The notes under the pieces were generated by a model. It made no database searches. It was not told the DNA's origin and worked only from the letters and a program-made list of their open reading frames with translations. A DNA stretch of 64,000 bases. Source: Acinetobacter sp. ANC 4178. Its GTDB lineage: Bacteria > Pseudomonadota > Gammaproteobacteria > Pseudomonadales > Moraxellaceae. Within the stretch, counting starts at the first letter, position 1, and each line of letters starts with the position of its first letter. Below are positions 1 to 16,984 of the stretch, piece by piece. The stretch lies in assembly GCF_004331175.1 (NCBI RefSeq), contig NZ_SJOD01000002.1, positions 124,001 to 188,000 of the forward strand. The letters are read 5' to 3'. Made by a program: the position numbers and the translations under genes.

Positions 1-3000
1 GTTGCTGATCACGCATGTTGCCGAAGCTATCGTACTGACGAACTGCAATCGTATTTTTACCAGCCGCCAATGGCACACCAATAAAGTCAAAGCCTGCTGC
101 ACCACGCTCTTGATAAACCGCTTTTTTACCAATACGCTTTTCCGAAACTTGTTCATCGTTTACAAATAAACGAATGTCGGTGCCTAAAGCACCTTTAACC
201 TGAATCGTGGCTTGTGGTGTAGGTAAAATTTGCTGTTCTTTCAGATTTAAAATCGCCAGTTGATTCGATTCCGAACGCTCCAGTTCTTGCTCTAAATCTA
301 AAACAACTGACGCCTTTACTGGTTCGATTTGAACAGTTTGAATCTCTTTAATCTGATCTTTTTTATATTCAATATTACAATTGGCTGAAGCCCCTGCTGC
401 ACTAATACATCCGCTTGCAGGTTGACCTTGTACATCTGAAACTGAATTGCTGAGTGGATCAACGGTTAAATCTTGACGCAAGGTTTGCTCTAATGCATCC
501 AGTTGCGCATTAATTTTACTGCGGCGGTCTTCAATTTGCTCCGCCAAAGCTTGACTGCATTCACCTGAAGAATCAGTAATCGCGAAGTCTGCTCGGTGCA
601 ATTCGCCACGTTTTAAATCTACGAATCGGCTGGCTGGATCACCTGCTTGACGGTTATTAATCAGCACCAATTCTGCATTATTGGGTAAAGTCGTATTGTC
701 GACTTTTAATACGTGGGTAATCGGTTTAATGCCGTAGAAGTTGTATTTACCTTCACGATCCGTCACCACAAAGCTACCATCTTCCATATAAATACGGATA
801 CCAGGTACACCGCGTTCTCCCGCATCTTGAACGCCATTGCGGTTACAGTCGCTAAAGACTTTCCCGACAATAAAGCCATCTGGACTAAATACACCAGGGG
901 TGACTTTTACTGCGGCCTGTGCTTCATTCGAAACGGTATTTTTGTTGTCCTGCGCGTACACACGGTTAACGCCATCTCCACTCAGCGCATTAGGACCAAT
1001 ATAGACACGGTATTGAACTTTGGCTTGTTGCTTTGGTGTCAGCGTTCCCAAACCTAGCGTCAAATAAGGTCCTTTTCCACCTTCAGGATCTGCATTTTTT
1101 TGCCCATTGACGCGGGTACTGCCTGAAACATAAATAAAACCACGAGGCAAAGTATCTTTCATGTTGACATCATAGAGGGTCGAATCCCCCATATTTGCCA
1201 CCGTAATTTGATAATCTTTAAAATCACCAATTTCGGCAGTATTCGTTCCGACCACTTCTTTTTTAATGACTAATTTGTCATTGCTGGGTACAGAAATATC
1301 TACAGGATCAATTGGAATATCAATATTGAGTGCAGCATCACCCGTCTTTAACGTAAAGTTGCCCCCATACGACCAAGAGCTGTCAACCACACGATCCGCA
1401 AAATTATTATAAATGGTCTTGTCACTGGTAAATTTATAATTGGTAGAGCCTGCAATTGTTGAAGTATCAATATCAAGTCTATAAGTTCCATTTTCCACAA
1501 AAGGATAGACAAATTCGCCTTTACTATTGGTTAGCTGCGTTGCAGGAATCACCACTTTTTCACCCGTGGTTTCATCCAATTTATACGCCACATTTTCAGC
1601 AGGATTACCCTTCGCATCCAACAACGTGACCTTCGCACCAGCAACAGGTAAATTGGTCTTTGCATCAAAAACGACACCATAAGGATCAATTAAAACCGTG
1701 GTATGAATATCTGTAATACTGTTGGTCGAATTACCACTCTCATCTAAACAATCCGTCAAAGACACAATCACCTGATCTCGCTTGACGGTTTGTAGAATCT
1801 GGTCATTCAAATGAATGGCACCCGCTTCTTGTGTTGCTAAAGTGAAGCGGAATACACCTGTATTCGCCCCAGTCTCCACGCCCTGAACATACTCAACATC
1901 CCCAGTCAGCGTCGATTGAACTTTAATTTTGACTTTATCTAAATTGCTACGTGAGGCATTACACATGGCACTATTTGCAGCAATGTATAACGGTTGATTT
2001 AGACTGCCCGTTGCTAAAATATTAGAATAATTTTTGCTGTTATTGCTAATTGATGCACTACCGCCAACGGTTGTCGTCACTTCGTTGGAAACTGTTTTTT
2101 TCAAACTCGAAAGCAAACCATGCTCAACATTAAACACGTTTGAAATTGAGGCATGACTCACATTGGAATTCATGGTCACAACCAACTCGACTGCTTCTGT
2201 GCTATTCGCAGCCAAGGCTTGAGGGTATGCCACCACCAGCGTATTAATTAAAGATTTATCTGCTGGAATCTGACGCGTAAACTTATCTTGTCCTAAAGGA
2301 TATAAAACCAGCGCTTTAGAATTGGTTGGTTTAGCCGATTTAAAGATGGTATTGGCTGGTATTTCATCCAACAAAACCACAGCCTTCATGGTCTCACCAT
2401 CAACGTCAATGGTTTGCAGACCAGAATTACGCTTTGAACTATTTTTCACGCTCAAGTTATAGGTTAAATCATAAGATTGACCCACTTGTGGTTCAATACT
2501 GGTTTTATCGACCGATTTGGTTGCTGTGAGTTGTGGTAAGAAACTAATTAAAGCATTGACCGCATCGGCAATGGCAGTCGGGTCTTGCACAACATAAGCT
2601 TGAAGTGGTAAGTCTACTTGCTGGTTATCATTTAGTGATATGGACGAATCAGCGACCACCCATAAATCAACTTTTTGCCCAGCCTGTAAACTTAAATGTC
2701 CAGTCACCAGTAAATCTGAACTATCAAATTCACCATTTTGATTACTGTCGACATAAATTTTAATATTCGATAATTCTGGAACAATACTTTTATCAATCGC
2801 AATATCGGCAGGTGCATTACTGTGATTGGTCAAAGTATTTAGCCAAATCACTCGCGCACCCGCATCAATTTCTAATCGTGTTGGTGAAGTGAGGCTAATC
2901 ACATATTTAGGAGTGATGGTCACTTGGACGGTATTTGAAACCGATTGACCAATTTGACCATCAGTTTGCATAAAACTTGCATACGCGGTATTGGTAATAT

Positions 3001-3118
3001 TTTGCCCAGCAGCAGGCATCACAGCATAAGCATGATTTACCAATGCCATAGCCGTAGCTAAGCTTGAAAAAATAAGCTTGATCTTATGATTCTGTAGCGG
3101 CTGAACTCGTTTAATCAC
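1..3118 (-). CDS. Large exported DUF11/SdrD-B-like repeat protein, 3' end outside window
   Basis: Open frame reading from a GTG at 3118 past position 1, so at least 1039 codons with no stop seen. GTG is chosen because GGGG lies about 8 nt upstream and the next in-frame stop upstream is at 3151-3149. Residues 1-32 form a signal peptide ending in an AYA-type site. Then come an Ig-like/DUF11 N-terminal region, a carboxypeptidase-regulatory-like segment (around residue 500, PVAGAKVTLLD), a DUF11 repeat around 600-700 (YQITVANMGDSTLYDV) and an SdrD-B-like repeat (GKVFSDCNRNGVQDAGE). The visible C-terminal part is a coiled/linker stretch followed by another beta-rich domain. It is the last gene of a unit starting at 6474. 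Function is unknown; a surface or secretion role is inferred. The unseen C-terminus could hold an outer-membrane anchor. Confidence 0.8.
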   Translation of the reverse strand, partial: MIKRVQPLQNHKIKLIFSSLATAMALVNHAYAVMPAAGQNITNTAYASFMQTDGQIGQSVSNTVQVTITPKYVISLTSPTRLEIDAGARVIWLNTLTNHSNAPADIAIDKSIVPELSNIKIYVDSNQNGEFDSSDLLVTGHLSLQAGQKVDLWVVADSSISLNDNQQVDLPLQAYVVQDPTAIADAVNALISFLPQLTATKSVDKTSIEPQVGQSYDLTYNLSVKNSSKRNSGLQTIDVDGETMKAVVLLDEIPANTIFKSAKPTNSKALVLYPLGQDKFTRQIPADKSLINTLVVAYPQALAANSTEAVELVVTMNSNVSHASISNVFNVEHGLLSSLKKTVSNEVTTTVGGSASISNNSKNYSNILATGSLNQPLYIAANSAMCNASRSNLDKVKIKVQSTLTGDVEYVQGVETGANTGVFRFTLATQEAGAIHLNDQILQTVKRDQVIVSLTDCLDESGNSTNSITDIHTTVLIDPYGVVFDAKTNLPVAGAKVTLLDAKGNPAENVAYKLDETTGEKVVIPATQLTNSKGEFVYPFVENGTYRLDIDTSTIAGSTNYKFTSDKTIYNNFADRVVDSSWSYGGNFTLKTGDAALNIDIPIDPVDISVPSNDKLVIKKEVVGTNTAEIGDFKDYQITVANMGDSTLYDVNMKDTLPRGFIYVSGSTRVNGQKNADPEGGKGPYLTLGLGTLTPKQQAKVQYRVYIGPNALSGDGVNRVYAQDNKNTVSNEAQAAVKVTPGVFSPDGFIVGKVFSDCNRNGVQDAGERGVPGIRIYMEDGSFVVTDREGKYNFYGIKPITHVLKVDNTTLPNNAELVLINNRQAGDPASRFVDLKRGELHRADFAITDSSGECSQALAEQIEDRRSKINAQLDALEQTLRQDLTVDPLSNSVSDVQGQPASGCISAAGASANCNIEYKKDQIKEIQTVQIEPVKASVVLDLEQELERSESNQLAILNLKEQQILPTPQATIQVKGALGTDIRLFVNDEQVSEKRIGKKAVYQERGAAGFDFIGVPLAAGKNTIAVRQYDSFGNMRDQQ

Positions 3119-3155
3119 GAAAATACCCCAATACCGAGCAAAAGCAGGTTAAAGG

Positions 3156-3180
3156 GATAGGCACTAAAGTGATGCCTATC
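3156..3180. other. Intercistronic hairpin
   Basis: Perfect 8-bp inverted repeat (GATAGGCA / TGCCTATC) with a 9-nt loop in the 93-bp gap between two DUF11 genes. There is only a weak T-run on the minus side, so it may be a weak attenuator or mRNA-stability hairpin rather than a true terminator. Confidence 0.4.
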
Positions 3181-3211
3181 CACATAAATAGTTATTGATG
3201 TTTTGAGTTAA

Positions 3212-5935
3212 TTATTGAGCATCAACTTTGACGCTGAACTTCATCGTAACGGTTTCAGATGGAGCCAAATCAAACTGAGATGACTTCAAGTTGTTTGCCG
3301 TGTTGGTCACTGTACCTTTTGACACTGGATCTAGTGCAGCTGCAGGCGACGAACCTAGCGTGGTGTAACTTGGTACAGCATCGGTAATTTCAACTTTAGT
3401 CACCGCCTGATTACCATCATTTACCGCTTTGATTTGGTAAATGATACAAGCACCCGGTTTAGCCTGAAGTGTAAATGTTCCAAAGCTACCATCTGGTGTT
3501 CCGTCACATGCTGCATCAAGTGCTTGCATTTTTTCCAGACGAACTTGACCAATGTTCACTGTGGTTTTGTCCGTAACAGTGATCGCAGCAGGAGCCGCCG
3601 TACCATTTAATGCACCAGTAGGTGTAACCGTCACAATCGATAGATCGGCTTGACCCGCTGTTGCATTACTTGGTGCTTCAACTTTAACCAAGATATTGAT
3701 ACTTTCTTTTGGAGAAAGACCATCAGCACCATTGGTTGCAGTTAACCACTTGTTAAGGTTCTGAACATCAGTAACCAACTCATCCGTGTCTGCAATACCA
3801 TTGTTGTTTTTATCAACATAAACAGAAGTCACAAAACCGTTAGTTGCAGGGTCATGTGTAATGCTGATAGGCAATGTTCCATCAGCAATACCCTCTACAA
3901 CGTTACCGTTGTTGGTTAAGGTATGTTTATAGACAATCGTACCACCCGGTGCAACCTGACCTTGTTGGTCCGCCAAGAATGAAAGTCCACGAACTGCTTC
4001 CACAGTAAGATGATCTTTCATCTTGTCTGTTAAGCCTGTTGCAGGTGAATTAATTGTGAAGACAATGTCTTGGCTATTTGCAGGTGTTGCATCTGTAGAT
4101 GGAGTCACCTTGGCACAGAAATACGCCGTTGCATTAGGCTGAATAGCACCCGTATTGGTCACTTTAGTCGCTGAACATACACCACTTGAATCAGCAACGA
4201 AGTATTCAACTGTCCAACCCGCTGGTAATGCTTGTTCAGTACCAAAGTTATAGTTGTCTGCTGTTGAACCATAATTCGTTACAGCAATTGGGAACGTAGC
4301 TGCAACACCTGGTTTAGTGGTTACCGTGTTGACGACATTACCTGGAACGTATATGCCTTCACCCGTTAAACCTGTATCATCTTCCGCGTAGTTTTTATTC
4401 CCTTTACCATTGCTTAAATCGACTTTTGATGCTGTGATATTGGTAATTCTTAAAGTCACGGTATCTGAAGATGCTGGCGCATGTACAGGTGTAATGGTTA
4501 AGATTGTGTCCAAACCAGGTGCTGTAATTGGGCCGGTATAACCATTTGGCAAAGTAATCCGTGCAGAGATTTCAAGGTGACCACCTGAAGCCAATGGGCC
4601 ACTGTCTACGCTTGCATCACCATTGGTATCGGTTAACGGTGTATTACCATCTGACTTTAATAACTCAACAATAGAACCTGCAGGTAGTGCAGATTTATTC
4701 ACGGTAATGTTATACGTTTCAGCTACATTGCCAAGGTTGTGAATCCAGATATCTTCTGTAGAGCTTGATGCACCAAATAAAACTGGAGAACCTTGTACTG
4801 CTGTGGTGGTGATCAAGTCATCTTTAGCGAGATTGCCAGAAACTTTTTGCGCATCCGAATAAGTATCGGTCGCGTTATCGTTGATGGTACCTGTATAGGT
4901 AGACTGTACAGTTACATCATATGGGTTGGTAGGTTGAGAAGTCTCAGTACCCGGACCATCTGGATCAAATGTCGCGATGTTGGTAATTTTTCCTGCAGGA
5001 GCTGTATTATCCACCGTCACTTGGAAGGTTAACTTGCCCGTACTGTTACGCACTACAGAAGCAAGAACTAACTGAACTTTACCATTAGTAAATTCATACT
5101 TCGCTGCTGCTGCCGCTTCATCACCAGTCGCATCGGTCAATGCTGCTGTCTGACCGCTCCAACGTGCTGAACCTGCAACATAAGTCACGCCTGAAGGTAA
5201 AATATCTTCAATGGTTAAATTAGTTGCGTCGGCATTACCTGTGTTTTTATAGGTCAATTCATACGTTACGGTATCGCCACGCGCAACTGAAGTGACATTG
5301 GCAGACTTCGTGACTTGAATAACCGCACCTGAAACAATCGTTACGGTGTCAGTATTCAGTTTGGTTTTGTCTGCAATAACTGTAATGTAAGTACTTGCCG
5401 CAGACAGTGCTAATTGACCAGAATTACCAGCTGTTGCTGTTGCTGCGGTTGTACCCACTACAACTAAGCCTACAGACTCGCCAGCATTTAAGGTAACTTT
5501 TTGACCTGCCAAATTCGTACCGTTATCAGGCACACCATCTTTATTCGCATCTAAATAAATCGCAATGTTGGAGAAATCAAAATTATCCCCAGCCACATTC
5601 GCTAAATTTAGCGTAAATTCATCCGTTCCATTACCTGTATTGGTTAATACGTGCGATAAAGTCACGACACCATTCGGGTTGGCAGTTGCGGTACGGTTTT
5701 GCTCGAGTGTGAAGCTACCTACTTGTAAAACCGTGGTTTTAACTTCATTTGACGTTACAGTACGTGTGGTAGATGTACCATCTACATACGATGCTGTTGC
5801 AATGTTACTAATATTTGTTCCCGCGGCTGGCGCTGCTGCATGTGCACCTGTCGCGAAAAAAGCAAAGCCCCCCAAAACTGTGGCAATTGACACATAAAGG
5901 CTATTTCGCTTTGTTGTCTTCAAATTCATAGGCAT
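3212..5935 (-). CDS. Exported DUF11-repeat protein (907 aa)
   Basis: The signal peptide covers residues 1-33, with a hydrophobic core and cleavage after AHA. The mature protein starts with an SNIATASY-type motif also found in the neighbouring paralogues. A DUF11 repeat lies around residues 205-310 (YELTYKNTGNADATNL), more Ig-like beta repeats fill the middle, and a C-terminal DUF11-like domain carries two cysteines (AACDG and GACIIYQ). Three Asp/Asn-rich loops (DANKDGVPD, DTNGDASVD, DKNNNGIAD) resemble calcium-binding loops. A GGGGGA Shine-Dalgarno lies 5 nt before the first ATG; a second ATG at 5929 is possible. No sortase signal, transmembrane tail or beta-barrel is visible, so localisation beyond the periplasm is not settled. 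DUF11 domains occur in many bacterial cell-surface proteins, but no biochemical role is known for this type. Confidence 0.85.
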   Translation of the reverse strand: MPMNLKTTKRNSLYVSIATVLGGFAFFATGAHAAAPAAGTNISNIATASYVDGTSTTRTVTSNEVKTTVLQVGSFTLEQNRTATANPNGVVTLSHVLTNTGNGTDEFTLNLANVAGDNFDFSNIAIYLDANKDGVPDNGTNLAGQKVTLNAGESVGLVVVGTTAATATAGNSGQLALSAASTYITVIADKTKLNTDTVTIVSGAVIQVTKSANVTSVARGDTVTYELTYKNTGNADATNLTIEDILPSGVTYVAGSARWSGQTAALTDATGDEAAAAAKYEFTNGKVQLVLASVVRNSTGKLTFQVTVDNTAPAGKITNIATFDPDGPGTETSQPTNPYDVTVQSTYTGTINDNATDTYSDAQKVSGNLAKDDLITTTAVQGSPVLFGASSSTEDIWIHNLGNVAETYNITVNKSALPAGSIVELLKSDGNTPLTDTNGDASVDSGPLASGGHLEISARITLPNGYTGPITAPGLDTILTITPVHAPASSDTVTLRITNITASKVDLSNGKGNKNYAEDDTGLTGEGIYVPGNVVNTVTTKPGVAATFPIAVTNYGSTADNYNFGTEQALPAGWTVEYFVADSSGVCSATKVTNTGAIQPNATAYFCAKVTPSTDATPANSQDIVFTINSPATGLTDKMKDHLTVEAVRGLSFLADQQGQVAPGGTIVYKHTLTNNGNVVEGIADGTLPISITHDPATNGFVTSVYVDKNNNGIADTDELVTDVQNLNKWLTATNGADGLSPKESINILVKVEAPSNATAGQADLSIVTVTPTGALNGTAAPAAITVTDKTTVNIGQVRLEKMQALDAACDGTPDGSFGTFTLQAKPGACIIYQIKAVNDGNQAVTKVEITDAVPSYTTLGSSPAAALDPVSKGTVTNTANNLKSSQFDLAPSETVTMKFSVKVDAQ

Positions 5936-5982
5936 AAGAGTCCCCCGACTCCATCAAAATGATGTATATAAAACTTTAGAAA

Positions 5983-6474
5983 TTAATCGTTTGATGCATT
6001 TACTTTGGCTTGTGCACTAACAGTGACTGTTTTCTTGGCAGGCAATTCCATGATTTGCCACTGTAAAGCGCGGTATTCTTTGAGTGGAACATTGACAAGT
6101 TTTCCATCTACTTTTTTCTTTAATGGCATCGCAGCAAAGTTAACGCCATCGATACTCGCCAGCGCACCTGAAGGCAGGCTGTTGCCTAAATATTGCGTAT
6201 CTGCTGGAATAGGCAATGTTGCTTTTAAGCTTTTAATGCTGTGTGTCGTGTTGTTGGTATAAGTCGCACGATACTCGATAACATCTTGAGGCTTGATTGA
6301 GTCTGCAGCTTGAAACTGTGCATTCCCTTTACTGTCTACAACTTTTTTGAATGCTTTCAACTGAATTGATACAGGCTCATTGGATGTGGTTGCGGCAGCC
6401 ATTCCATGAGCAGCCCCCCCAGCAAGCATTAAACCCATCATCAATTTTTTCAGCGTAGTTCTTTTGTTTAACAT
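5983..6474 (-). CDS. Small exported single-DUF11-domain protein (163 aa)
   Basis: A signal peptide of about 27 residues (basic MLNKRTTLKK, then a hydrophobic core) is followed by one DUF11-like beta domain with the typical YTNN and LPIPADTQY strands. An in-frame ATG at 6501 lies upstream, but the ATG at 6474 is preferred: it has a GGA about 9 nt upstream and begins exactly at the signal peptide. The gene is first in a transcription unit with the 907-codon gene 47 bp downstream and the giant partial gene after it. It is far smaller than its neighbours and may be an accessory subunit or chaperone-like partner of the large repeat proteins; that is inference. Confidence 0.8.
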   Translation of the reverse strand: MLNKRTTLKKLMMGLMLAGGAAHGMAAATTSNEPVSIQLKAFKKVVDSKGNAQFQAADSIKPQDVIEYRATYTNNTTHSIKSLKATLPIPADTQYLGNSLPSGALASIDGVNFAAMPLKKKVDGKLVNVPLKEYRALQWQIMELPAKKTVTVSAQAKVNASND

Positions 6475-6660
6475 GATTTTATCCACTGCAAACCAATGCA
6501 TATATTTGCGACATTAATCACATTTAAGTAAATTAATGCTGCAAAGCTCAAAGCAATATTAAACAAAAAACGAACGCATCACCATACATTTTATAAAAAA
6601 AATGTTAACCAGTTCACTCTTGATTTTTTAATTTAGTTATATAACTTTACAAATTTTGAA

Positions 6661-6676
6661 ATAAACAGCTGTTTAT
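6661..6676. promoter_or_regulatory. Perfect 16-bp palindrome, possible operator
   Basis: The sequence ATAAACAG/CTGTTTAT is perfectly self-complementary. It lies about 190 bp upstream of the start of the 163-aa DUF11 gene, in the 420-bp non-coding gap that must hold the promoter of the second DUF11 unit. It has no T-run and no loop, so a protein-binding site is more likely than a terminator. No regulator is identified. Confidence 0.4.
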
Positions 6677-6701
6677 CATTAATTTTCATAAAAACAGTGA
6701 G

Positions 6702-6724
6702 TTTACATAAAGAAACAATGTAAA
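6702..6724. promoter_or_regulatory. Inverted repeat TTTACAT-N9-ATGTAAA, possible operator
   Basis: Two 7-bp half-sites in inverted orientation sit 25 bp from the perfect palindrome at 6661-6676, in the upstream region of the second DUF11 unit. The spacing is compatible with a dimeric regulator. Apart from these two elements, the gap 6502-6893 shows only AT-rich sequence without a convincing reading frame. Confidence 0.3.
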
Positions 6725-6893
6725 GCTTTGCGTGATTATTCCCTTATTCTTAAGATGAAATTAGACCGAACATTCAAACCAAGTAGTTGTTTAAAATATT
6801 TATTTATGATTATTTTTTAATATAATTCCTGTAGATTTAACGCATCTAATTGCTTCAAGCAAAATACGGGATATTGTTCGCTGTAAATTTAAT

Positions 6894-6933
6894 GAAAAAA
6901 ATAAAGTCGGCGCCATAAAAATGACCCGACCTT
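6894..6933 (-). terminator. Rho-independent terminator of the first DUF11 unit
   Basis: On the minus strand a stem AAGGTCGG...CCGACTT is followed by TTTATTTTTT. It begins 24 bp after the stop codon of the 1292-codon gene and separates the upstream three-gene unit from the second unit. Confidence 0.65.
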
Positions 6934-6956
6934 ATTGTATTGACCTAAAATCAAAA

Positions 6957-9900
6957 CTAGTTTGGAATCCGCACGCAGAAACCCACTTGCCCCTTTTGCT
7001 TAGGCGCCAATACCCCCGGAATCGTCCATTTTAATTGCCCTGAACTTTCCTGAGTTTGACAACCCGATGCCGTACAAGACATGGTTCCATAAACTGTTCC
7101 AAGTGGAACGCTATCTTTAAGGACAATATCAACCAAGTTTTTATTTGAATTATTGGTATAGGTGATTTGATATTCCAAATAATCGCCTTTAGCCGCTTGA
7201 TTCGTGACGGTAAACGGCGTTGAATCATTGCTCGGTGCAGGACATGCAGAGGTTTTTCTCACCAACTTACTCATGTTTAAACCTGCTGTACCAATGGTCG
7301 TAATATCGTTCACACTATTACTTTCCTTGGATGTCGCAGTACTATAAGTTGCCTTGCCATTAACCTTAAAACTCGCAATAAAACGATCTCCACCTTGTGC
7401 CGTGGTAGGTGAATTTACGCGTTGAATCAAACAAATTTTTTCATTGGCTTTCAATACACGACTGGTGAGTAAACTCTCACCCTGGTCTAACTGTGCATTA
7501 CAGTTACTATCGACATAAACCAAACTCTGCCAAGGTTGATTATTTGCTGGTTGTTTCTCTTTGCTTTCCGTTAAATTAAGCGCATTCATGACACTTTTCG
7601 CACTGAGCTCATGTGGGTAATCCACTACATCACCCGCCACAATGGTTTTTTGTCCATTTTGGGTTAAGACCAACTGTAACTCGGCATCGCCAAACAAGAA
7701 ACCATCATAACTGGTCACATTTGCCGCCTTAGGAATAGTAAAGAAGTCATTCGTTGTGTCGGCTGTTGCGGTCACACTACTGGCTTTTGCAGAACTGACT
7801 GAATCAAAACCCGTCAAATTACGCTGCACAAGACAAACATTACTGCGCCCAGCAAATACATCATCTAAGGTCTGTATTTTAAAATCACCATTGGCATTGC
7901 TGGTTGTAGAAGCCAAAACTGCTTTACTAGTACAATCTTGCAGTTCAACCACACTGCCCGCAATTCCCACTTCACCTGCATCTACAATCGCATTATATGC
8001 CTTAGAAACATCCGAAGTGGTACCGCTGTTATCGTTAAACACACGCCCCGAAAATACATAACCCGCTTTTTTACTGTTGGTCACACGACAAACGAGTTTT
8101 GCAGCAAATTTCACATTCGTTGCAGGTATGGTTTGGGTCATACCATTTACGCCACCCAAATTTGAAGTGCTATTGCCCGAAACTGCTGCATTGGTATCGG
8201 TACATTCAATACTTTTCAGTGAATATAAAGTCGAGGTTGATTCAGCAAAACTGATGGCTGTGTTTGGTGTTGCATAAGCCAATAATGAGCCTTGCTCGAC
8301 GGGTGATGTACTGGTTTTTAAACGAACCGATTGTGCAGTCCCTACTACCGTTGTGACTACTTCACCACTGGTAATAGTTTCAGCGTTGGCATTGCTCAAG
8401 TTGGTAAAAGTACTAAAGTTGAAGCTGTCTGTGCCATTTTCAGACACTTTATTCATTTCAAAAGTCGGTTTTAAGCATGCATTGACTTCATTTAGACCAA
8501 TACCAATATCATCTCCCGCAACACTAGAGCCTGCATAACTTTGAAACTCTGTGCGTACCATATTGATACTGGTCACAGCCGTTGGCAAAGTAATGGTAAA
8601 ATTAATCGAGCCTGGATCAGTTTGGTAAGACGTTAAAGTATAATCTGCCTGCGAAACCTGTGCACCATTTAAGGCATTAAAAGAGGCTGTTAAATTAGCA
8701 CTTTTTCCTGGTGTGGTTAATACAGCATACACAACGCCATCTACCAATATTCGCATGTTCACTGCCGTTGTATTACTTCGTGGTGAGCCATATGACCAAC
8801 TCAAACGACCTTTTAATTGCAATGCACCATTTATACCAGTGCCATACATCACCGTATTCGGAAGAACTGTTGGACTCGAACCTGCAGTTTTTAGATTATT
8901 ATCAAAAGCCGCCAAGGTATTATCTGCATCATACTTTCTAAAAGTAGTATCAGACACCAAATTTACTGCTTGACCAGATAAACACTGATTTTGGGAGCTG
9001 CCAGTGGTGCTTGGCGTATTCTGTGTAATCGTCATATTTGCAGTTGCATTATTATTTACAGAATTTGAATCGAATACGCTGGTCGAAATCGTTGCTGTGT
9101 TAGCTACAGAACCTGCTTTATAAGCTAAGCCTGTTATAGTGAACTCTAAATAATTAACATCTTTTCCATTTGCGGGAAGATTCAGCCCTGTCGCAGTTAA
9201 ATTATTACTACTTTCCGAAACTACCATATTAGCCGTGCTTGGACACACTGCAGTACCATATTTGGTACATGACCAGCTTAAACCTGAGAGATTAGTCGGA
9301 ACAGGATCTGCTAAGACTGCATCAGTAACAGCCAAGCCACCATTATTCCAAGCCTTAATCGTATATTTCACAACATCGCCAGCATTATAGGTAGCCTTAT
9401 CAGAAATTTTTGAGACTTCCAGATCGGCAGAAGCAAGTACAGTATCTTGGTCCGCTGTCGTACAAGCACCTGTGGTTGAGTTAAATGAACGGGTAATACC
9501 GTTTGCATTTAAAGTTGTACAACTTGCACCTGTTGAAGAACCTAAGGTTGGCACATCCACCGTAGCAGTGTTCGTTACCGTGCTGCCTGCCGCAGCATCT
9601 ACACGTGCTGTGACTAAAATTTCGTAAAATTCGCCAGAAGCCAAGCTTCCTGTATCAATAGAAGCTAAACTATTTAAAGCTGGAGCTGTGGTACATTTAT
9701 TGCCTGCAGCCGTACTACAAGCAACGGCTGTAGCGGTTAACCCAGTTCCCACGACGTCCTTAAGCAAAGTGCCTGTATAAGTATCGGGGCCGTTATTCGT
9801 TACACGGACGGTATAAGTCGTCGTACTGCCTGAATAGACTTGGGTCGTGTTATTGGTTTTTGAAACCACCAAATCACCCACCATAGAGTCAACACTTGAA

Positions 9901-10835
9901 GCACTAAAAATAAATGCATCTGCTCCAGTGTTTCTTGATATATCTATTAAGCCAGAAGCATTAGAATCAGAGCGCAGATAAACAGCAAATTTAAGCTCAG
10001 TAATGGCAGAACTTGTCATTATCTGGACACTACCACTCGCTCCCCCAGCATCAATAGTTGCACTAATAGTACTTGATGTATTTCGAATTTCTCCATTACT
10101 GACTGAAAAATTACTCCCCGATAATCGGTACATCTGTGAAACATTCGTAGTTGATAGCAACTTAAATTGTGAGCTAATCCCATAAGCTGGATATAGTTGT
10201 GTATTAGATGAGGAGGTCCGCCCTCCTAGTCCAGAAATATTAATGACTGGGTTCGTAATGGGACGATCCCACTTCATTGTTATTTCGCCAATATAATGCC
10301 CTAATCCACTATTTACTCCAGAAGTATTAATCGAGCGTCCCGCTAATTTTTCCCAATTCCCCGTAAAACGAACACCATAGTTTGTAGCTAGATCAATGCC
10401 CGCCCCTACATTATTCCGATTAGATGAAAAAACACTCGTATATGCACTATAATTTGTTGGGAACCCTTGATCTTTTAAAGCAACAAAAGAGTTTGCGCTA
10501 TAAAAAAGTCCATACGAATCATTAGATGATCCAGAATACGGATTATCGGTTATTGAATAAGTAACTTTCGTCACGGGAAAGTATGACTGTGTATTATTAT
10601 CATTTGGATTTGCTGGGTTAAATACAAATGTATTCGTTTTATCATTCAACGACGCACTAGTAGTATTAGTACCACTAGCAGACATGATTTCTAAAGTCGG
10701 AACAGCAAGTACAATCTGCGAAATACCCATTATGAAACTTAGTAAGCCAGCATAAGCTATTTGCTTAGTAAGCGAGTTTGAACTTATTCTTTTCTGAATA
10801 CTATGCAAAACATAATTCAACTTAGTTCCCCACAT
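6957..10835 (-). CDS. Large exported DUF11/SdrD-B-like repeat protein (1292 aa)
   Basis: The ATG follows GGGGTGA closely and overlaps the end of the upstream gene by 14 bp, which indicates translational coupling. A long signal-anchor-like leader (residues about 20-45) precedes a beta-rich N-terminal domain (50-300). DUF11 repeats lie near 325-440 (YTVRVTNNGPDTYTG) and 470-600 (YTIKAWNNGG), and a separate domain with SxDDIGIGL near 650-810. An SdrD-B-like repeat follows near 960-1060 (SGRVFNDNSG), and a C-terminal DUF11 near 1205-1290 ends in VGFCVRIPN. One Asp/Asn loop (DSNCNAQLD) is present. It is the last gene of the first unit, as the SdrD-B-bearing giant is the last of the second. Function is unknown; an extracellular structural or adhesive role is inferred from family habits. 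Confidence 0.85.
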   Translation of the reverse strand: MWGTKLNYVLHSIQKRISSNSLTKQIAYAGLLSFIMGISQIVLAVPTLEIMSASGTNTTSASLNDKTNTFVFNPANPNDNNTQSYFPVTKVTYSITDNPYSGSSNDSYGLFYSANSFVALKDQGFPTNYSAYTSVFSSNRNNVGAGIDLATNYGVRFTGNWEKLAGRSINTSGVNSGLGHYIGEITMKWDRPITNPVINISGLGGRTSSSNTQLYPAYGISSQFKLLSTTNVSQMYRLSGSNFSVSNGEIRNTSSTISATIDAGGASGSVQIMTSSAITELKFAVYLRSDSNASGLIDISRNTGADAFIFSASSVDSMVGDLVVSKTNNTTQVYSGSTTTYTVRVTNNGPDTYTGTLLKDVVGTGLTATAVACSTAAGNKCTTAPALNSLASIDTGSLASGEFYEILVTARVDAAAGSTVTNTATVDVPTLGSSTGASCTTLNANGITRSFNSTTGACTTADQDTVLASADLEVSKISDKATYNAGDVVKYTIKAWNNGGLAVTDAVLADPVPTNLSGLSWSCTKYGTAVCPSTANMVVSESSNNLTATGLNLPANGKDVNYLEFTITGLAYKAGSVANTATISTSVFDSNSVNNNATANMTITQNTPSTTGSSQNQCLSGQAVNLVSDTTFRKYDADNTLAAFDNNLKTAGSSPTVLPNTVMYGTGINGALQLKGRLSWSYGSPRSNTTAVNMRILVDGVVYAVLTTPGKSANLTASFNALNGAQVSQADYTLTSYQTDPGSINFTITLPTAVTSINMVRTEFQSYAGSSVAGDDIGIGLNEVNACLKPTFEMNKVSENGTDSFNFSTFTNLSNANAETITSGEVVTTVVGTAQSVRLKTSTSPVEQGSLLAYATPNTAISFAESTSTLYSLKSIECTDTNAAVSGNSTSNLGGVNGMTQTIPATNVKFAAKLVCRVTNSKKAGYVFSGRVFNDNSGTTSDVSKAYNAIVDAGEVGIAGSVVELQDCTSKAVLASTTSNANGDFKIQTLDDVFAGRSNVCLVQRNLTGFDSVSSAKASSVTATADTTNDFFTIPKAANVTSYDGFLFGDAELQLVLTQNGQKTIVAGDVVDYPHELSAKSVMNALNLTESKEKQPANNQPWQSLVYVDSNCNAQLDQGESLLTSRVLKANEKICLIQRVNSPTTAQGGDRFIASFKVNGKATYSTATSKESNSVNDITTIGTAGLNMSKLVRKTSACPAPSNDSTPFTVTNQAAKGDYLEYQITYTNNSNKNLVDIVLKDSVPLGTVYGTMSCTASGCQTQESSGQLKWTIPGVLAPKQKGQVGFCVRIPN

Positions 10836-13479
10836 ATTTCACCCCAAACTCTAAGCTATGGCTTTCATTACTATTCACTGCTGCAACTGAAGCTTTAATT
10901 GCACCCGTTTGTCCCAGTGCAGGCGCACTAAGTGAACCCACTTCACAGGTTGTGCAACTTGGCGCTTTGCTCATGACCATCGCTTCAGGGGTGTAATCAT
11001 AAAAATTAAATCGACCAATTGCCGAAGCGCCCAAATTTTTCACGGTTAATTGATACAAAACACACTGCCCAGACCCATCCAAATTACGGGTAATCGGCAA
11101 TACATTTGAGGTATACGCGCCATCAGCAACCCCATCGCAATTATTGTCATTGGCTTGTAATTTAGTTAAACGTACAGGTGAACTGGTGATGGTGGTAATG
11201 TCTGTCGCCGTATCTAGCAAAGTACCAGCACTATTTTTTAGGCTAATGATGGACGTATTCACGATTCCAACTGTGTTATACGCGGTATTTTCAACTTTAT
11301 TAAAAATACGAATAGGCGCTTTGCTGCTTAGAATAGAGCTATTCACAATCGATAAATTTTGAATCATTGGATCAGAAGCATCTAACTGTCCATTATTATT
11401 GGCATCATAATAAAGGGTTGTCGTAAAACCTGTTCGATCATTGACAACACTTAAAGCATCCGTTGCTGACAATACAGACGTTCCCCATGGTTTTAAGCTA
11501 TGGCTATACACAATACTGCCACCCGGCGCAATTTGCCCACGTAAATCAGGCTCTAAACTTACCCCACCCTGACTCGCATTTGAGTTAATCGTAATGGCAT
11601 TTTGAATGACGTCGTACGCATTACTTGGTGCGGAGCTCATCAAATTAGACGAAGCGACTTTAAAATAAATCGGAATCGGTTGACTTGTGCTTTGAGCATC
11701 TGCCCGAATTTCCACTACGGCGCAATACAGTTGCGATTCACCATCACCCAACAAACGAGTTGAAGAGATTTCTGCCCCAAGTGCTGAACAGTCTGTGGTG
11801 GATGTCGAAAAGTAACGAACAGAACTAATTGCTGGAGGCAATGCAACCGTCGCAAAATTATTATCGGCATCGGCACTAAAGTTATAAGCAGTCGCTTGAC
11901 CTGTATGACTTACAGTTAATGGAAACACCACCGTTTTATTGTTGACCCCAGTTAGGATTTTCCACGGTGAACCTGCATTCGATACATTGCCATTTCCCGT
12001 ACCATTTGCTGTAGTATCGGGGCTATTGATCAAGTCCACCAAACGAGCGGCCGTACTTTGAATGAGAGAGGTACGATCTTGTACCGTATCTGTTTTGGTA
12101 CTGTCTAAGATCGATTGTGCTTTAGGCACAATGTTATATGTGGTATTGGCTGTATCCACATAGTCTGTTGGGAAGGTGACCTTCACAATAATCGGAAGTT
12201 TGGCTCCTGAAGCTAGCATTCCCGTATCAACAAGACCGTCATTATTGCTATCAAACAGCGGTGTAACCCCATCCGCACGATAAAACTCTAGCACACTGCC
12301 TGTCGGTAAATTATGACTATTAAAAGTTAAATTAAACCGATCAGCGACAGTTCCAGTATTCCAAACATAGTTTTCGAAGCTAACTGTACCGCCACTACTT
12401 ACCGCAGACTTGGTGAGTAAATCCACGCCACTTATGCTATTTGCATCAGCATTAATCACCACACCATAAATGGGCTTAATGGTTAATACCGCAGTATTCG
12501 ACTGCGTAGTTAAATTTGCTGTGCTGGAAAGACCATCATGGTCATAGTCCATATTGGCCAAGTTGGGAATTTCACCGGGTGCAGTACGTGCAACGCGAAC
12601 ACGGAATTCAATATAGCCTTGAGCATTCGCAGGTACATTGGTGATTTGCGCACGAATGGTTTTACCATCTGTATCGAGATAATAATTAATCCCTGTTGGG
12701 TCATTACTACCTGTCGCAGAATTCAGGGCCTGCCCATTCCAGTTTTCATTACCCGTAACATAGGTCAACTGCGTGGTATCTAACAAGTCGCTGATATTCA
12801 CCACGCCACTGTTATTACCATTATTAAAATAGGTTAAGCGGACAGTTGCGATATCACCATTCACTACGCTTGTTTTATCAAAACTCTTGGTTAAGTTGAG
12901 TACCGCCTGATCAGTGATTCGTGAAGTATCAATATTATTTTGAGTCAGGCTCGGTTGTTGTGTCGAAGTAGCTGTGAGTTGAATCTGACTGGAACTATTT
13001 ACGGCTGCGGATGATGGAATAATGGCTTTAATAATCAGTGCAACCGAATCACCAGCATTTAAGCTATATTGAGTAATCGGTGTATTACTGTCTGCAACAC
13101 CATTACGATCGGCATCCAAATAAATTTCAATATTGTTATGAGTGAAACTACCCCCAGCAATTTGACTACCCAACAAATTATAAAGATCGCGCTCATTGCC
13201 TGTATTGGTTAAAATATGGTGATAATAAATCGCCTGACCCGGACGTACATATTCCGTGCGGTTATCCTTTAAACTCAAGTTATAAACAGGAAGTACCGTG
13301 GTTTGCACCAAGTTGGAACGTGCCACTTGAACCACAGTAGAGCCTTCTTCTTTGTATTCGCCCACAGCCATATTACTGATAACCAAAGCATCAGCAAAAA
13401 CCCAAGTCGATGCTGTTGCCCCCAATAAGCTCAGCATCGCAATACGCAAATTTCGAATCATTTTCTTTTCTGCAAACAT
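10822..13479 (-). CDS. Exported DUF11-repeat protein (885 aa)
   Basis: The signal peptide begins at Met1 or Met7 (ATG at 13461) and ends near WVFA. The first ATG has TAGG about 8 nt upstream and is kept here. The architecture matches the 903- and 907-residue paralogues. It has an N-terminal ISNMAVGEY motif, an LTNTGNERDLY segment, and a DUF11 repeat near 195-300 (RLTYFNNGNNSG). Three Asp/Asn loops (DADRNGVAD, DSNNDGLVD, DANNNGQLD) lie at corresponding places. The C-terminal DUF11-like repeat has the conserved cysteines (NNCDG and GQCVLYQ) plus an extra CTTC. It starts 15 bp after the upstream gene and overlaps the downstream one, so the three genes are almost certainly co-transcribed. No anchor motif is visible. 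Confidence 0.85.
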   Translation of the reverse strand: MFAEKKMIRNLRIAMLSLLGATASTWVFADALVISNMAVGEYKEEGSTVVQVARSNLVQTTVLPVYNLSLKDNRTEYVRPGQAIYYHHILTNTGNERDLYNLLGSQIAGGSFTHNNIEIYLDADRNGVADSNTPITQYSLNAGDSVALIIKAIIPSSAAVNSSSQIQLTATSTQQPSLTQNNIDTSRITDQAVLNLTKSFDKTSVVNGDIATVRLTYFNNGNNSGVVNISDLLDTTQLTYVTGNENWNGQALNSATGSNDPTGINYYLDTDGKTIRAQITNVPANAQGYIEFRVRVARTAPGEIPNLANMDYDHDGLSSTANLTTQSNTAVLTIKPIYGVVINADANSISGVDLLTKSAVSSGGTVSFENYVWNTGTVADRFNLTFNSHNLPTGSVLEFYRADGVTPLFDSNNDGLVDTGMLASGAKLPIIVKVTFPTDYVDTANTTYNIVPKAQSILDSTKTDTVQDRTSLIQSTAARLVDLINSPDTTANGTGNGNVSNAGSPWKILTGVNNKTVVFPLTVSHTGQATAYNFSADADNNFATVALPPAISSVRYFSTSTTDCSALGAEISSTRLLGDGESQLYCAVVEIRADAQSTSQPIPIYFKVASSNLMSSAPSNAYDVIQNAITINSNASQGGVSLEPDLRGQIAPGGSIVYSHSLKPWGTSVLSATDALSVVNDRTGFTTTLYYDANNNGQLDASDPMIQNLSIVNSSILSSKAPIRIFNKVENTAYNTVGIVNTSIISLKNSAGTLLDTATDITTITSSPVRLTKLQANDNNCDGVADGAYTSNVLPITRNLDGSGQCVLYQLTVKNLGASAIGRFNFYDYTPEAMVMSKAPSCTTCEVGSLSAPALGQTGAIKASVAAVNSNESHSLEFGVKYVGN

Positions 13480-13494
13480 TTTCCGAGCCTACGC

Positions 13495-16149
13495 TTAAGG
13501 GTTAACACGAATGACAAAGTAGAAATTGGCTTCTTGATTTGGATCTAAACTACTCACCAAAGCAGAAACTTTCTCACCAGAAGATAAATTTGTTCCTGTC
13601 GGAACAATCACAGGCGTCCCAACAAGACTGGTGTAAGCAGGAACGACATCATTAAACTGCACATTCTTCACCACGGAACTACCATCATTTTTCAGCGTGA
13701 GTTTATAGGCCACACACTGATTCGGTTTAACCGAAACCAACTGGGTGGTATAGCTCAAAGCGGCTAGATTACTGGTTATACAGCTACTATTTTCCGCTTG
13801 TGTTTTGAGTAACTGCAAATGCCCAGTTGCCACTGTGGTGACATCGGTGTTTTTTAAGTTATCTAAATGAATGCCATTAAAATCAGAGATTTCGACTAAA
13901 ATATCAGCCTGACTCACCACACCTTCTGTTGCCGAAGGAGCTGCCTGAACTTTAAGTAAGAGCTGGATGTCGGCCTGAGCAACCAAACCAGCACTGCCCA
14001 AAAGCTGATTTAAGCTGGTGGTGGCGCTGATCATCTGGTCTGCACTATCAATTTGACCATTTTTATTGGCATCGTAATAAAGACTATAAACAAAGCCATC
14101 ATTTTTTAGTGGAACCACTTTAAGGTTCACTTGAGAGCCTGCATTTGCCCCTTCTGCCATATTGCCCAAATTCTTTAAAGTATGAATATAGACAATCGTG
14201 CCCCCAACGCCTACTTGTCCCTGCTGATCATTGGTCAGGGTGAGTAAACGTGCAACATTACTTTCTATTTGGTTCTTAATGGAGTCTGCTTGTTGATTGA
14301 CAGGTGATTGAATTGCAAACCAAATGGGTGCTGTAAAATTCTGCTGGCTGGCATCAACATCAATCACCGCACAATACGCTTTACTTGCTCCCGCCGCTAA
14401 AGTTCCCGTATTGGTGATCTGCTTACCAACCGTTTGACAGCTAGCATCGCCTTCATAAAATTTGACACCAAACCCAGTTCTTGATGTAGGCGCAATATTG
14501 TCTACATCAATCGCGCTAAAGGATGCATACAAATTATAGTTATTGGCTTGGGTAGAATTATTCTTTGCCACCAAAGGAAAAATAGCTTTACCCGAAACCA
14601 CTTTAACCGTACGTAAAGCTTGCCCCAGATTATCCACAACACCTACGCCTAAACCCGATTGGTCTGCGTTGTATAAATCACTGCTGCTCGATACTGTCGT
14701 TAAGACTGTAATTTGGTTACGAATTGGGTCAGAGACCGAACTTGAAGCAATCGAAGTTGCAACCACATCAATATTGATATGACTGACACTGTTGGTACAA
14801 CCTGTGGAAGCGAACACCCCAACCTGAATTTGTTTTACCGCTGCGTTGGAAATTGACCCCGTATCGACTTTGCCGTCACCATTGGTATCTGTGAGTAAAG
14901 TTTTTCCATCTTGCGTGTAGAAATTAACTTTGGCACAACTTGGTAAATTGCTTGAGCTGTAGCTTAGATTGTAAACATCGGTGCTATTGCCAACGTTCCA
15001 GACATAGTTATTAAAAAAAACTTCTTGCCCTGGTTTTAAACTGGCTTGAATCACCAAGTTATCGGGGCTGCTATTGGGGTTGCCGACGTTGGTTGCTGAA
15101 CTGGATTTATTATTTAAAACCACACCATAGACAGCAGCTAAGTTATAGATCACGGTATTGGAGAAACTGCTCAGTTTTACCGTAGTATTATCCGTGTCAT
15201 ACTGCACAAAACCCGCTGTGTTTGGAATTTTACTGGCCGCACCTTGTTTCACTTTGGCTTGAAAAGCCAACGTACCTGAGGTGAGCGGCGCAACGGCTGC
15301 AATACTGGCTTCTACACTTTTCCCATCAGGTTTGAGTTGAAAAGCAATTCCCGTATTCGTTGATGCTTCCGTATCATTTGCATCGGTGAGTGCGGTGCTA
15401 TTTTGATTCCAAATTGCCGAGCCTGATACATATTCCAAGGAATCATCCAAGACATCTTGCAACAGCACACGACGCGTTGCTGTACCTGTATTTCGATAGG
15501 TCAAAGTATAAGTAATCAGATCACCTATATTGCCTTCACTTGCACTTTGCGCTTTAACCAGAGCAATTACGGCATCGTCTACAACGCGAATCGTATCGGT
15601 GACTTGTGCAGAAAGCGTCGCATTTTGCTGGCTCACGGCCTTGAGGTCTAAACTACTAAGCTGATTAAAAGACACATTGCTAGGAATACTGCCCACAATC
15701 ACAACAGCTAAAGATTGTCCTGCATTCAGCTCAATTGAACCTAGCAATAGGTCTTCGGTATTATCAGGTAAACCATTTTGATCACGGTCTGCATATACCT
15801 TTACATTACTTAAATCAAAGTTATCGCTAGTGCTTTGCACTAAAGCCAAGGTATATCGATCAGCACTATTACCTGTATTGGTCAGCACGTGTGGAAGATT
15901 CACCACCCCGCCTATAGCGCCATATTGGTTTTGATTTTGTAGCAGTGTTAGGGAGTATGTTTTTTGTACTTCCAATGCCACAGGATTGGAATTGACCAAT
16001 AAGACGTTCCCCATCTCATCGGTATAATCCCCAGATGCAACGTTGGAAATATAGCTTCCAGGCTGAGGAAAAGCATGACAAACACCCACCAATAATAGCG
16101 ATGCACTCCCCAATAACGCGCGATGTATTCTTGTTGTCATCCCCTGCAT
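13495..16149 (-). CDS. Exported DUF11-repeat protein, first gene of the cluster
   Basis: An ATG at 16206 is also in frame, but its codons 2-3 form a TATAAT box and the residues after it do not look like a leader. The ATG at 16149 starts a proper signal peptide (MQGMTTRIHRA, core LLGSASLLLVGV, cleavage near CHA) and has GTGAG upstream, so it is preferred; ATG 16140 is a further option. The mature protein has the SNVASGDY motif, an LTNTGNSADRY segment, a DUF11 repeat near 210-320 (YTLTYRNTGTATRRV), Asp/Asn loops DRDQNGLPD, DTNGDGKVD and DANKNGQID, and a C-terminal DUF11-like domain with cysteines (SSCIT and NQCVAYK). It is a paralogue of the two next genes. Function is unknown. Confidence 0.82.
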   Translation of the reverse strand: MQGMTTRIHRALLGSASLLLVGVCHAFPQPGSYISNVASGDYTDEMGNVLLVNSNPVALEVQKTYSLTLLQNQNQYGAIGGVVNLPHVLTNTGNSADRYTLALVQSTSDNFDLSNVKVYADRDQNGLPDNTEDLLLGSIELNAGQSLAVVIVGSIPSNVSFNQLSSLDLKAVSQQNATLSAQVTDTIRVVDDAVIALVKAQSASEGNIGDLITYTLTYRNTGTATRRVLLQDVLDDSLEYVSGSAIWNQNSTALTDANDTEASTNTGIAFQLKPDGKSVEASIAAVAPLTSGTLAFQAKVKQGAASKIPNTAGFVQYDTDNTTVKLSSFSNTVIYNLAAVYGVVLNNKSSSATNVGNPNSSPDNLVIQASLKPGQEVFFNNYVWNVGNSTDVYNLSYSSSNLPSCAKVNFYTQDGKTLLTDTNGDGKVDTGSISNAAVKQIQVGVFASTGCTNSVSHINIDVVATSIASSSVSDPIRNQITVLTTVSSSSDLYNADQSGLGVGVVDNLGQALRTVKVVSGKAIFPLVAKNNSTQANNYNLYASFSAIDVDNIAPTSRTGFGVKFYEGDASCQTVGKQITNTGTLAAGASKAYCAVIDVDASQQNFTAPIWFAIQSPVNQQADSIKNQIESNVARLLTLTNDQQGQVGVGGTIVYIHTLKNLGNMAEGANAGSQVNLKVVPLKNDGFVYSLYYDANKNGQIDSADQMISATTSLNQLLGSAGLVAQADIQLLLKVQAAPSATEGVVSQADILVEISDFNGIHLDNLKNTDVTTVATGHLQLLKTQAENSSCITSNLAALSYTTQLVSVKPNQCVAYKLTLKNDGSSVVKNVQFNDVVPAYTSLVGTPVIVPTGTNLSSGEKVSALVSSLDPNQEANFYFVIRVNP

Positions 16150-16197
16150 AAAGCAAACACTCACAAAATTTACAATAAATGATAAATAAGTCACAAT

Positions 16198-16205
16198 ATT
16201 ATACA
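16198..16205 (-). promoter_or_regulatory. Putative extended -10 promoter element for the DUF11 cluster
   Basis: TGTATAAT on the minus strand is a full TATAAT with a TG extension. It sits about 50 bp upstream of the preferred start of the first DUF11 gene, and no good -35 is seen. It also lies inside a short ATACAT-AA-ATGTAT inverted repeat. The rest of the gap 16207-16573 shows no convincing gene, only short open frames and a 12-bp palindrome TGCTCATGAGCA at about 16342. Confidence 0.4.
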
Positions 16206-16573
16206 TAAATGTATCATTTGTTGATTATTTTGCACACGCTTTTAGATAATTTTTCTTATTATTCTTCTGACGACAAGGCATGCGCTTGCGCAGCTTCAGC
16301 AGCACATCCAAGAAACATTGAATTAATACGTTGAGTCACTGCTCATGAGCAATACCAATCAAGTGCTGGATGCAACCAAAGGCAATATAAATAAATGAGC
16401 TTTATCAACAACTAACTTAAAAATAAATTTAAAAGTCCCAAAACCTTTCTTTAATATTAGCTGAAAAAACGACGTGAAATTATTTTGACTTTTCCAAATC
16501 AAGAAAAACCTGCTTTGGAATAAACCATTCATAATGAAGCAATAAATAAAAAAAGAAGGGAATATGCGAATGA

Positions 16574-16978: not shown

Positions 16979-16984
16979 CTTCAA

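Follow-up and report, generated by a model that had tools for sequence, protein, structure and literature searches.

What could a bacterium build from six DUF11-type proteins encoded in tandem? The question is raised by a 64,000-nucleotide stretch of Acinetobacter sp. ANC 4178 (the window; positions 124001–188000 of contig C3, NZ_SJOD01000002.1), in which six DUF11-type genes, five of them complete and the sixth cut off by the window edge, occupy the minus strand of positions 2–16206. We name them A to F in order of transcription. As an earlier note on this DNA had claimed, the list of open reading frames (ORFs) contains no other gene between the six. The most likely reading of these sequences, and one that we think rather probable, is that the cassette encodes a surface fibre built head to tail through split DUF11 (CLIPPER) domains, with an isopeptide bond at the junction.

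Split DUF11 domains

In a CLIPPER domain an isopeptide bond joins an early lysine to a late asparagine with the assistance of an aspartate; in the solved example these residues are Lys715, Asn806 and Asp748 (PMC12617251). In A, B, C and E the terminal DUF11 domain breaks off ahead of the final hairpin that carries the isopeptide Asn, and we refer to this incomplete domain as the catcher. The missing hairpin, which we call the tag, lies at the N-termini of A, B, E and F straight after a signal-peptide-like stretch. It follows the pattern I.N.A...Y.......SN.V and includes ISNVASGDY in A, ISNMAVGEY in B, ISNIATASY in E and ITNTAYASF in F. A tag alone is present in F, a tag together with a catcher in A, B and E, and a catcher alone in C and H (a further DUF11-type gene found in relatives). 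This connectivity fits a linear chain that has a base at one end and a tip at the other, and head-to-tail complementation is well supported by the sequences. The features of the cassette are as follows.

13495..16206, minus strand: gene A (P0001), 903 amino acids, shaft-type with tag, internal DUF11 domain and terminal catcher
15961..16062, minus strand: A tag, residues ~49–82, Asn55 codon at 16042–16044
13498..13818, minus strand: A terminal catcher, Lys801 and Asp853, stopping before the Asn hairpin
10822..13479, minus strand: gene B (P0002), 885 amino acids, shaft-type with tag and terminal catcher, no Pfam match
13285..13386, minus strand: B tag, Asn36 codon at 13372–13374, same tag in 12 of 12 relatives
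10825..11175, minus strand: B terminal catcher, Lys773 and Asp828
6957..10835, minus strand: gene C (P0003), 1292 amino acids, candidate tip with terminal catcher
6960..7280, minus strand: C terminal catcher, Lys1190 and Asp1241
6502..6956, no strand: C–D gap of 455 bp between two proposed transcription units
5983..6501, minus strand: gene D (P0005), 172 amino acids, lone catcher-like domain without a tag, candidate cap or chaperone
3212..5935, minus strand: gene E (P0004), 907 amino acids, shaft-type, modelled as a string of beta-rich domains
5726..5824, minus strand: E tag, residues 38–70, Asn44 codon at 5804–5806
3215..3544, minus strand: E terminal catcher, Lys802 and Asp852, invariant in 32 aligned E proteins
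2..3118, minus strand: gene F (P0006), N-terminal 1039 of 2005 amino acids, with tag, DUF11 and SdrD_B
2909..3007, minus strand: F tag, residues 38–70, Asn43 codon at 2990–2992

Tags were counted in proteins complete at the 5' end and catchers in proteins complete at the 3' end. A two-part form of the tag pattern is present in the single A protein counted, in 43 of 49 E and 47 of 57 F proteins, and in none of 25 C, 11 H and 53 D proteins; it occurs in 10 of 520 unrelated ORFs and in only one of 12 B proteins, all 12 of which are caught by simpler patterns. These counts set the Geomonas group (below) apart, keep loci L091 and L093 and leave out F proteins of less than 1500 amino acids. A one-part pattern, counted without the nine Geomonas-group loci, L091, L093 and the same short F proteins, matches B in 12/12, E in 47/49, F in 53/55 and D in 0/53 cases. 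It is less specific (C 9/25, H 1/11, unrelated ORFs 49/520), and we read the matches in C, all at residue 103 or beyond, as due to chance.

The tag also resembles the piece that the catcher lacks. A hidden Markov model (HMM) of 113 tags finds 49 internal sites of at least 5 bits in the family proteins other than those of L091 and L093, compared with none in shuffled sequence. The 22 sites of at least 8 bits, read by hand, comprise 16 hairpins that end an internal domain, two that cover only its second strand and four located elsewhere. A pooled HMM of internal domains was swamped by the long repeat proteins of L091 and L093 and was not used.

The catchers were aligned as the last 125 residues of the family proteins together with complete internal domains. 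Outside the Geomonas group, both Lys and Asp are kept in 11/11 A, 23/23 B, 25/25 C and 12/12 H rows, one of the H rows (L080) really being the cut end of an A protein, and none of the A, B, C and H rows reaches the Asn column. The E catcher has Lys in 48 and Asp in 50 of 61 rows; among these rows are both pieces of an E protein that is broken in L066, and a D-like protein of L113. Three residues do not vary across 32 E proteins, namely Asn44 of the tag and Lys802 and Asp852 of the catcher; the set consists of the window protein and 31 of 37 relatives of 840–1000 amino acids, short and Geomonas-type proteins being left out. In the same 32 sequences the internal DUF11 domain of E has a complete triad in cis, with D244 and N319 invariant and K210 present in at least 90%.

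The nine loci of the Geomonas group (L101, L103, L104, L105, L106, L108, L109, L120 and L122) retain their E and F genes. In all nine, Lys and Asp are both missing from the E catcher, and His replaces Asn in the F tag. This joint loss can be read as a natural control for the pairing of tag and catcher. Since F and E are kept there without Lys, Asp and Asn, a non-covalent form may also exist. The domain split itself does not depend on the chemistry. Both points would suit a donor-strand fibre throughout, in which complementation occurs in trans, no isopeptide forms at the junction and strand exchange alone gives stability. We consider such a fibre rather unlikely, as Lys and Asp are kept in every A, B, C and H row outside the group, and the invariance of Asn44, Lys802 and Asp852 in E is hard to explain without a bond.

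A structural model of E (predicted local distance difference test, pLDDT, 82.8) is consistent with the split. In the internal DUF11 domain, strand 299–308 is followed by strands 315–324 and 339–343, and the terminal domain ends at 895–904; the strands of the tag fall within 41–51 and 57–69. The internal domain (model residues 201–344) matches the CLIPPER structure 9IFR with Z 13.3 over 122 residues at 2.5 Å. When solved structures were searched by sequence, 9IFR matched F weakly (E 0.062), and nothing useful was returned for E, C or a single C domain.

The tag is modelled confidently in the single E chain (pLDDT 83–91 in 10-residue blocks across residues 41–70), which could mean that it docks in cis. 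A, B and E bear both halves, and the proteins could be independent monomeric adhesins whose tag closes on their own catcher to give a circular or clasped molecule, with F a separate outer-membrane protein. However, because F has only a tag and C and H only a catcher, self-closure is impossible for these three; gene order is conserved, and E is a long multi-domain chain. We consider this arrangement unlikely.

The domain content of the proteins is only partly captured by Pfam. DUF11 (PF01345, cut-off 24.6 bits) is matched by A (32.0), C (86.5), E (57.6) and F (37.3), with D falling below at 18.6 bits; the profile finds eight places in this genome, all within the cluster. B has no match, yet it is 34% identical to A across 840 amino acids, and A, B and E are paralogues with 32–34% identity. 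C has an N-terminal domain of its own without a tag, followed by DUF11 domains, SpaA_4, a weak SdrD_B (23 bits, under the cut-off of 29.7) and the terminal catcher. SdrD_B passes in F at 47.3 bits. C and F, the two larger proteins from which the earlier note had proposed a block duplication, share a stretch of only ~119 amino acids, and D has no counterpart in the first unit; we therefore reject the duplication. The barrel described below is also present in F alone.

Genes D, F and G

D is a lone domain with a signature of its own. At the position of the catalytic Asp, 38 of 54 D proteins have Leu, as does D of the window, and eight have Asp. D thus looks like a catcher that is mostly unable to form the bond, and perhaps suits the role of a chaperone or cap. 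Further lineages, represented by 12 loci, show the same separation. D has Asn in five, Ala in one and Asp in one of the seven proteins from the eight loci concerned, and the neighbouring E-type proteins keep Asp in 16/16 and Lys in 15/16 cases. These E-type proteins were picked by position and by a length of 327–476 amino acids, five of them being without a match to the family profile, and three ORFs in the same blocks (246, 802 and 709 amino acids) were not counted. L127, L132 and L133 have no same-strand block upstream and stand outside the E and D counts, and L126 has no F ORF. Nine of the 11 F proteins from these lineages have the tag Asn.

The earlier note had placed an outer-membrane anchor at the C-terminus of F, which is incomplete in the window. 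Extended past window position 1, F is completed at 2005 amino acids and ends at C3:121101, and a seventh gene, G (220 amino acids, C3:120442–121104), overlaps it by 4 bp across the F stop codon; the system runs beyond the window edge. The expected anchor is borne out at the level of prediction by a large beta-barrel that makes up the C-terminal half of F. Its last strand is conserved, reading RFRFKFDE(N/D)LF in most proteins of Acinetobacter type and being of (M/F)KFDQ type in distant ones. We modelled residues ~931–2005 of the A. tandoii homologue from 42 sequences (mean pLDDT 77, predicted template modelling score 0.61). The model consists of Ig-like domains and then 43 strand elements of at least three residues in model residues 273–1056, reaching to the last strand. 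Ig-like domains from GH2 enzymes and from intimin are matched by the part ahead of the barrel.

The best VIA-align match of the barrel model is the FimD usher (Z 16.6, 331 residues, 5.5 Å), with SlpA and others close behind. Pfam does not detect the Autotransporter domain (PF03797; 12-stranded, type Va) in F, and it finds no match to usher or PapD-like chaperone families in the seven proteins at E ≤0.1. The C-terminal half of F is predicted to be a giant outer-membrane barrel, the fold scores pointing to a barrel and not to its family. We considered filing F as an usher and have not done so, since FimD, SlpA, SprA and others all match at modest scores.

Among these matches are the SlpA/SDBC envelope chains of Deinococcus (Z 14.8, 14.3 and 13.8). 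They raise the alternative of an S-layer-like coat, in which the subunits would tile the surface on the F barrel as in the Deinococcus SlpA envelope complex, and DUF11 proteins have been proposed as part of archaeal surface layers (PMC12617251). However, FimD ushers score equal or higher (Z up to 16.6), and large barrels match each other broadly. One tag and one catcher per subunit favour a linear chain, and the varied N-terminal regions of C and H are like those of tips. A coat seems improbable on this evidence. What the earlier note had offered as an extracellular fibre or coat is still conjectural, and narrows to a head-to-tail fibre joined through split DUF11 domains, with the generic coat set aside.

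G of this species has no Pfam domain that passes the cut-off. Overall, an OmpA domain (PF00691) is present in 21 of 27 G proteins (20 by BLAST and L091 by Pfam), a count that omits a 155-amino-acid ORF of L064 that does not adjoin F. The six without it are G of this species, those of its close relatives L051, L052 and L053, the interrupted A. junii copy L065 and L069. In G027, Perlucidibaca and a Burkholderiales bin the domain is close to the C-terminal end of G, and in Geomonas, Marinobacterium and G053 it lies inside F, ahead of the barrel. This exchange of OmpA between F and G implies that the two are functionally tied. The comparison suggests that the stretch ahead of the F barrel is periplasmic, which does not settle the side of the N-terminal half of F.

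Two variations on F were observed. In two Burkholderiales-type loci (L091 from 2312 and L093 from 599) DUF11-repeat proteins of 3068 and 3648 amino acids lie directly ahead of a separate barrel ORF, as if F were split into two genes. In the sample of the phylum described below, open frames of ~1100–1450 amino acids (for example in G275, G585, G248 and G513) match only positions ~190–650 of the barrel model; such partial matches suggest a wider outer-membrane family.

Gene order and distribution

The closest named relatives of F are in Acinetobacter sp. ANC 4910 (97% identical) and A. tandoii (96%), records from its own genome perhaps being excluded. F is matched in 15 of 58 genomes searched around that of the window, its own included; the genus accounts for 37 of the 58 genomes and for 12 of the 15 matches. 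The order A-B-C-D-E-F is found in the same orientation in 10 of 12 mapped genus genomes, in one case across two contigs. The other two carry D-E-F-G and then the DUF11-type gene H, and both of these loci begin at a contig start. A wider search of the genus finds F in 43 of 175 genomes at E ≤1e-50.

Named genomes yielded 75 loci, with 42 D-E and 52 E-F neighbour pairs. They span Acinetobacter, Alkanindiges, Perlucidibaca, Zavarzinia, Methylibium, Steroidobacter, Thiothrix and others, as well as Marinobacterium, Geomonas/Geobacter, Desulfuromonas and Sulfurovum. The core D-E-F, or E-F, thus reaches other Proteobacteria and Desulfuromonadales. In the phylum sample the barrel model is matched at E ≤1e-30 in 55 of 398 genomes; the match is near full length in 39 and partial in the other 16. 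The earlier note had taken a missing anchor together with single, scattered homologues to tell against its idea of a joint system. Neither is the case here, as F has a predicted barrel anchor and the genes co-occur in most relatives, seven of the 75 loci having F alone.

In six loci the cassette is followed by one and the same pair of genes (clusters c0 and c1, read from sequence as rsmB and fmt). Two of these hold B-C-D-E-F-G, cut by the locus start, and four hold D-E-F-(G)-H. With the neighbours constant and the modules varying, D-E-F is the core, to which either A-B-C or H seems to be added as an alternative module. At other loci the cassette adjoins several different gene sets. In one genome (G028, L033/L034) it lies between two nearly identical ORFs (259/262 residues) in opposite orientation, which we take to be IS3-type transposases; G is shortened there to 217 amino acids and followed by an unrelated ORF. 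Some C proteins (L054, 1354–6330; L070, 5082–9227) start with a QRS(F/Y).N(L/F)-type region, as found in H proteins (for example L060, 16248–19139), and other C proteins start with a PTIEI-type region. Judging from these starts, tip domains seem to have been swapped among C and H.

The intergenic spacing is 15 bp between A and B, 455 bp between C and D, 47 bp between D and E and 93 bp between E and F, with B and C overlapping by 14 bp. The C–D gap measures 161–670 bp in the 21 C–D pairs of relatives. The A-B-C block is missing from the D-E-F-G-H loci, and in A. nectaris L058 it is inverted with respect to D-E-F, which implies two units able to rearrange independently. Both the spacing and this comparison support two transcription units, A-B-C and D-E-F-G, in agreement with the two parallel units proposed earlier. 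A scan of the C–D gap contributes nothing on this point, with one promoter-like site (shuffle mean 3.1, hence no excess) and no terminator-like site.

Upstream of A, promoter-like sites are no more frequent than in shuffles, and two overlapping terminator-like sites (shuffle mean 0.9) fall inside an ORF of 136 amino acids. This Cys-rich ORF (window 16574–16984) has a TTG start and is 85% identical in G011. Gene A begins at 16206 or at some later start codon, and the edge of the cluster lies at ~16206. A tRNA-Leu (caa) is located near the cassette at window 18022–18108. Past G, the genes are on the opposite strand; judged by sequence, they encode a fumarase-type hydratase of two subunits and a transporter.

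A proposed fibre and its known relatives

In the fibre that we propose, each subunit would lend its tag in trans to complete the catcher of its neighbour, much as donor-strand complementation works. An intermolecular Lys–Asn isopeptide would then form spontaneously, in the manner of a natural SpyTag/SpyCatcher, to give a covalent chain with F as base, E, A and B as shaft and C as adhesive tip. D may occupy tags without bonding, either as a periplasmic chaperone or as a cap. The barrel of F would anchor the fibre and may let subunits out, and G would tie the base to peptidoglycan through OmpA in most relatives, this species and its close relatives being without OmpA. Inference also underlies the role of C and H as tips, the route of export and any target for adhesion.

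Several points weigh against this fibre. The meeting of tag and catcher in trans and the Lys–Asn bond at the junction are themselves inferred, and signal-peptide ends were placed by eye. A first, stricter tag pattern found all 12 B tags, missed the single A protein (0/1), matched E in 45/58 and F in 46/71 cases, and occurred in 28 of 520 unrelated ORFs; it also occurred in 14 of 53 D proteins at residues 79–103, inside the domain. Joining a tag to a catcher raises the Pfam DUF11 score unevenly. The E catcher scores 32.8 bits alone, 38.2 with the F tag, 36.0 with the E tag and 33.3 with a control; the C catcher scores 28.8 alone, 38.9 with the F tag, 30.1 with the B tag and 30.9 with a control. 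In 9IFR the spacing of Asp and Asn is 58 in the paper and 57 in the printed sequence, so the triad was assigned by motif. The Geomonas-group loci are close relatives, and their co-loss was therefore probably a single event. The catalytic Asp is retained in the eight D proteins noted above, and among the further lineages F of L131 has no tag Asn and F of L127 no recognised tag. In seven of the 75 loci, several of which are on short contigs, no partner of F was recognised. When the barrel was compared by Foldseek, the query template modelling score was low, at most 0.22 among the 50 matches listed.

Among the nearest known systems is the Acinetobacter silvestris adhesin B9T28_05395, the source of 9IFR, whose domain is of the same family and fold with the Lys-Asp-Asn triad seen in the internal domain of E. 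That adhesin is a single polypeptide with an unsplit domain, an intramolecular bond and an OmpA-like domain of its own (PMC12617251). In the cassette, by contrast, the terminal domains are split between proteins, and OmpA in relatives occurs in a separate gene or inside F.

SpyTag/SpyCatcher consists of a short piece with one bond partner and a domain with the Lys, and derives from a CnaB-type domain of Streptococcus pyogenes. It is a two-piece isopeptide domain, as the cassette tag and catcher together would be. However, SpyTag/SpyCatcher is engineered, whereas the cassette split is natural, of CnaA/DUF11 type and placed with both halves on every shaft subunit. Gram-positive sortase pilins likewise have CnaA-like isopeptide domains, and BcpA (Z 14.4), EbpB (14.4), RrgB (13.1) and SpaA (12.0) match the E model. 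Their shafts are covalent, as predicted for the cassette, but are joined by sortase at an LPXTG-type signal. No C-terminal sorting signal of this kind was found in A, B, C, D or E, whose C-termini coincide with the last catcher strand or lie no more than a few residues from it.

Chaperone-usher pili (FimD/FimC/FimA) share with the cassette, at the sequence level, an incomplete terminal Ig-like domain together with an N-terminal donor that could complete it in a neighbour. They also have a large outer-membrane barrel, such as is predicted for F, and a small accessory Ig-like protein comparable to D. In the cassette, however, the donor would be a hairpin in which an Asn is conserved, each of A, B and E is a chain of several domains with ~900 amino acids, and the Pfam families of usher and chaperone are not matched. 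Archaea of the kind that form threads are not known to have an outer membrane. The archaeal thread protein Saci_0406 forms a donor-strand filament with an intermolecular isopeptide at the N-terminus, linking the amino group of an N-terminal Asp to Asn57 two subunits away (PMC9715654), whereas a Lys–Asn bond is predicted for the cassette. DUF11 is not mentioned in that paper (PMC9715654). Work on sporesilk is cited as a natural case of autocatalytic intermolecular bonding (PMC12617251), and PMC12282271 and PMC10787695 appear to have no bearing on the cassette. We found no description of the cassette or of a split DUF11 domain in the open-licence literature, outside which lie preprints and most subscription papers, as judged by title and the start of the abstract.

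Beyond this species, we put forward tentatively that these loci represent a widespread and undescribed class of Gram-negative surface fibre made covalent without sortase. Such fibres would have a two-ended shaft, an inactive catcher (D) that keeps tags apart during export, F as base and exit, and tips C and H swapped between lineages. They would amount to a natural SpyTag/SpyCatcher polymer in Proteobacteria, Desulfuromonadales and at least one Campylobacteraceae bin.

If this is true, many Gram-negative bacteria build a covalent surface fibre under simple rules, in which a tag alone marks the base, both halves the shaft and a catcher alone the tip. Given the number of genomes with F-type barrels, near full length or partial, adhesion by such a system would be common although the system has no name, and many proteins annotated only as 'DUF11 domain-containing' would gain a function. 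Nature would then be using the SpyTag/SpyCatcher trick itself, and the tags and catchers of these loci would offer new pairs for protein ligation.

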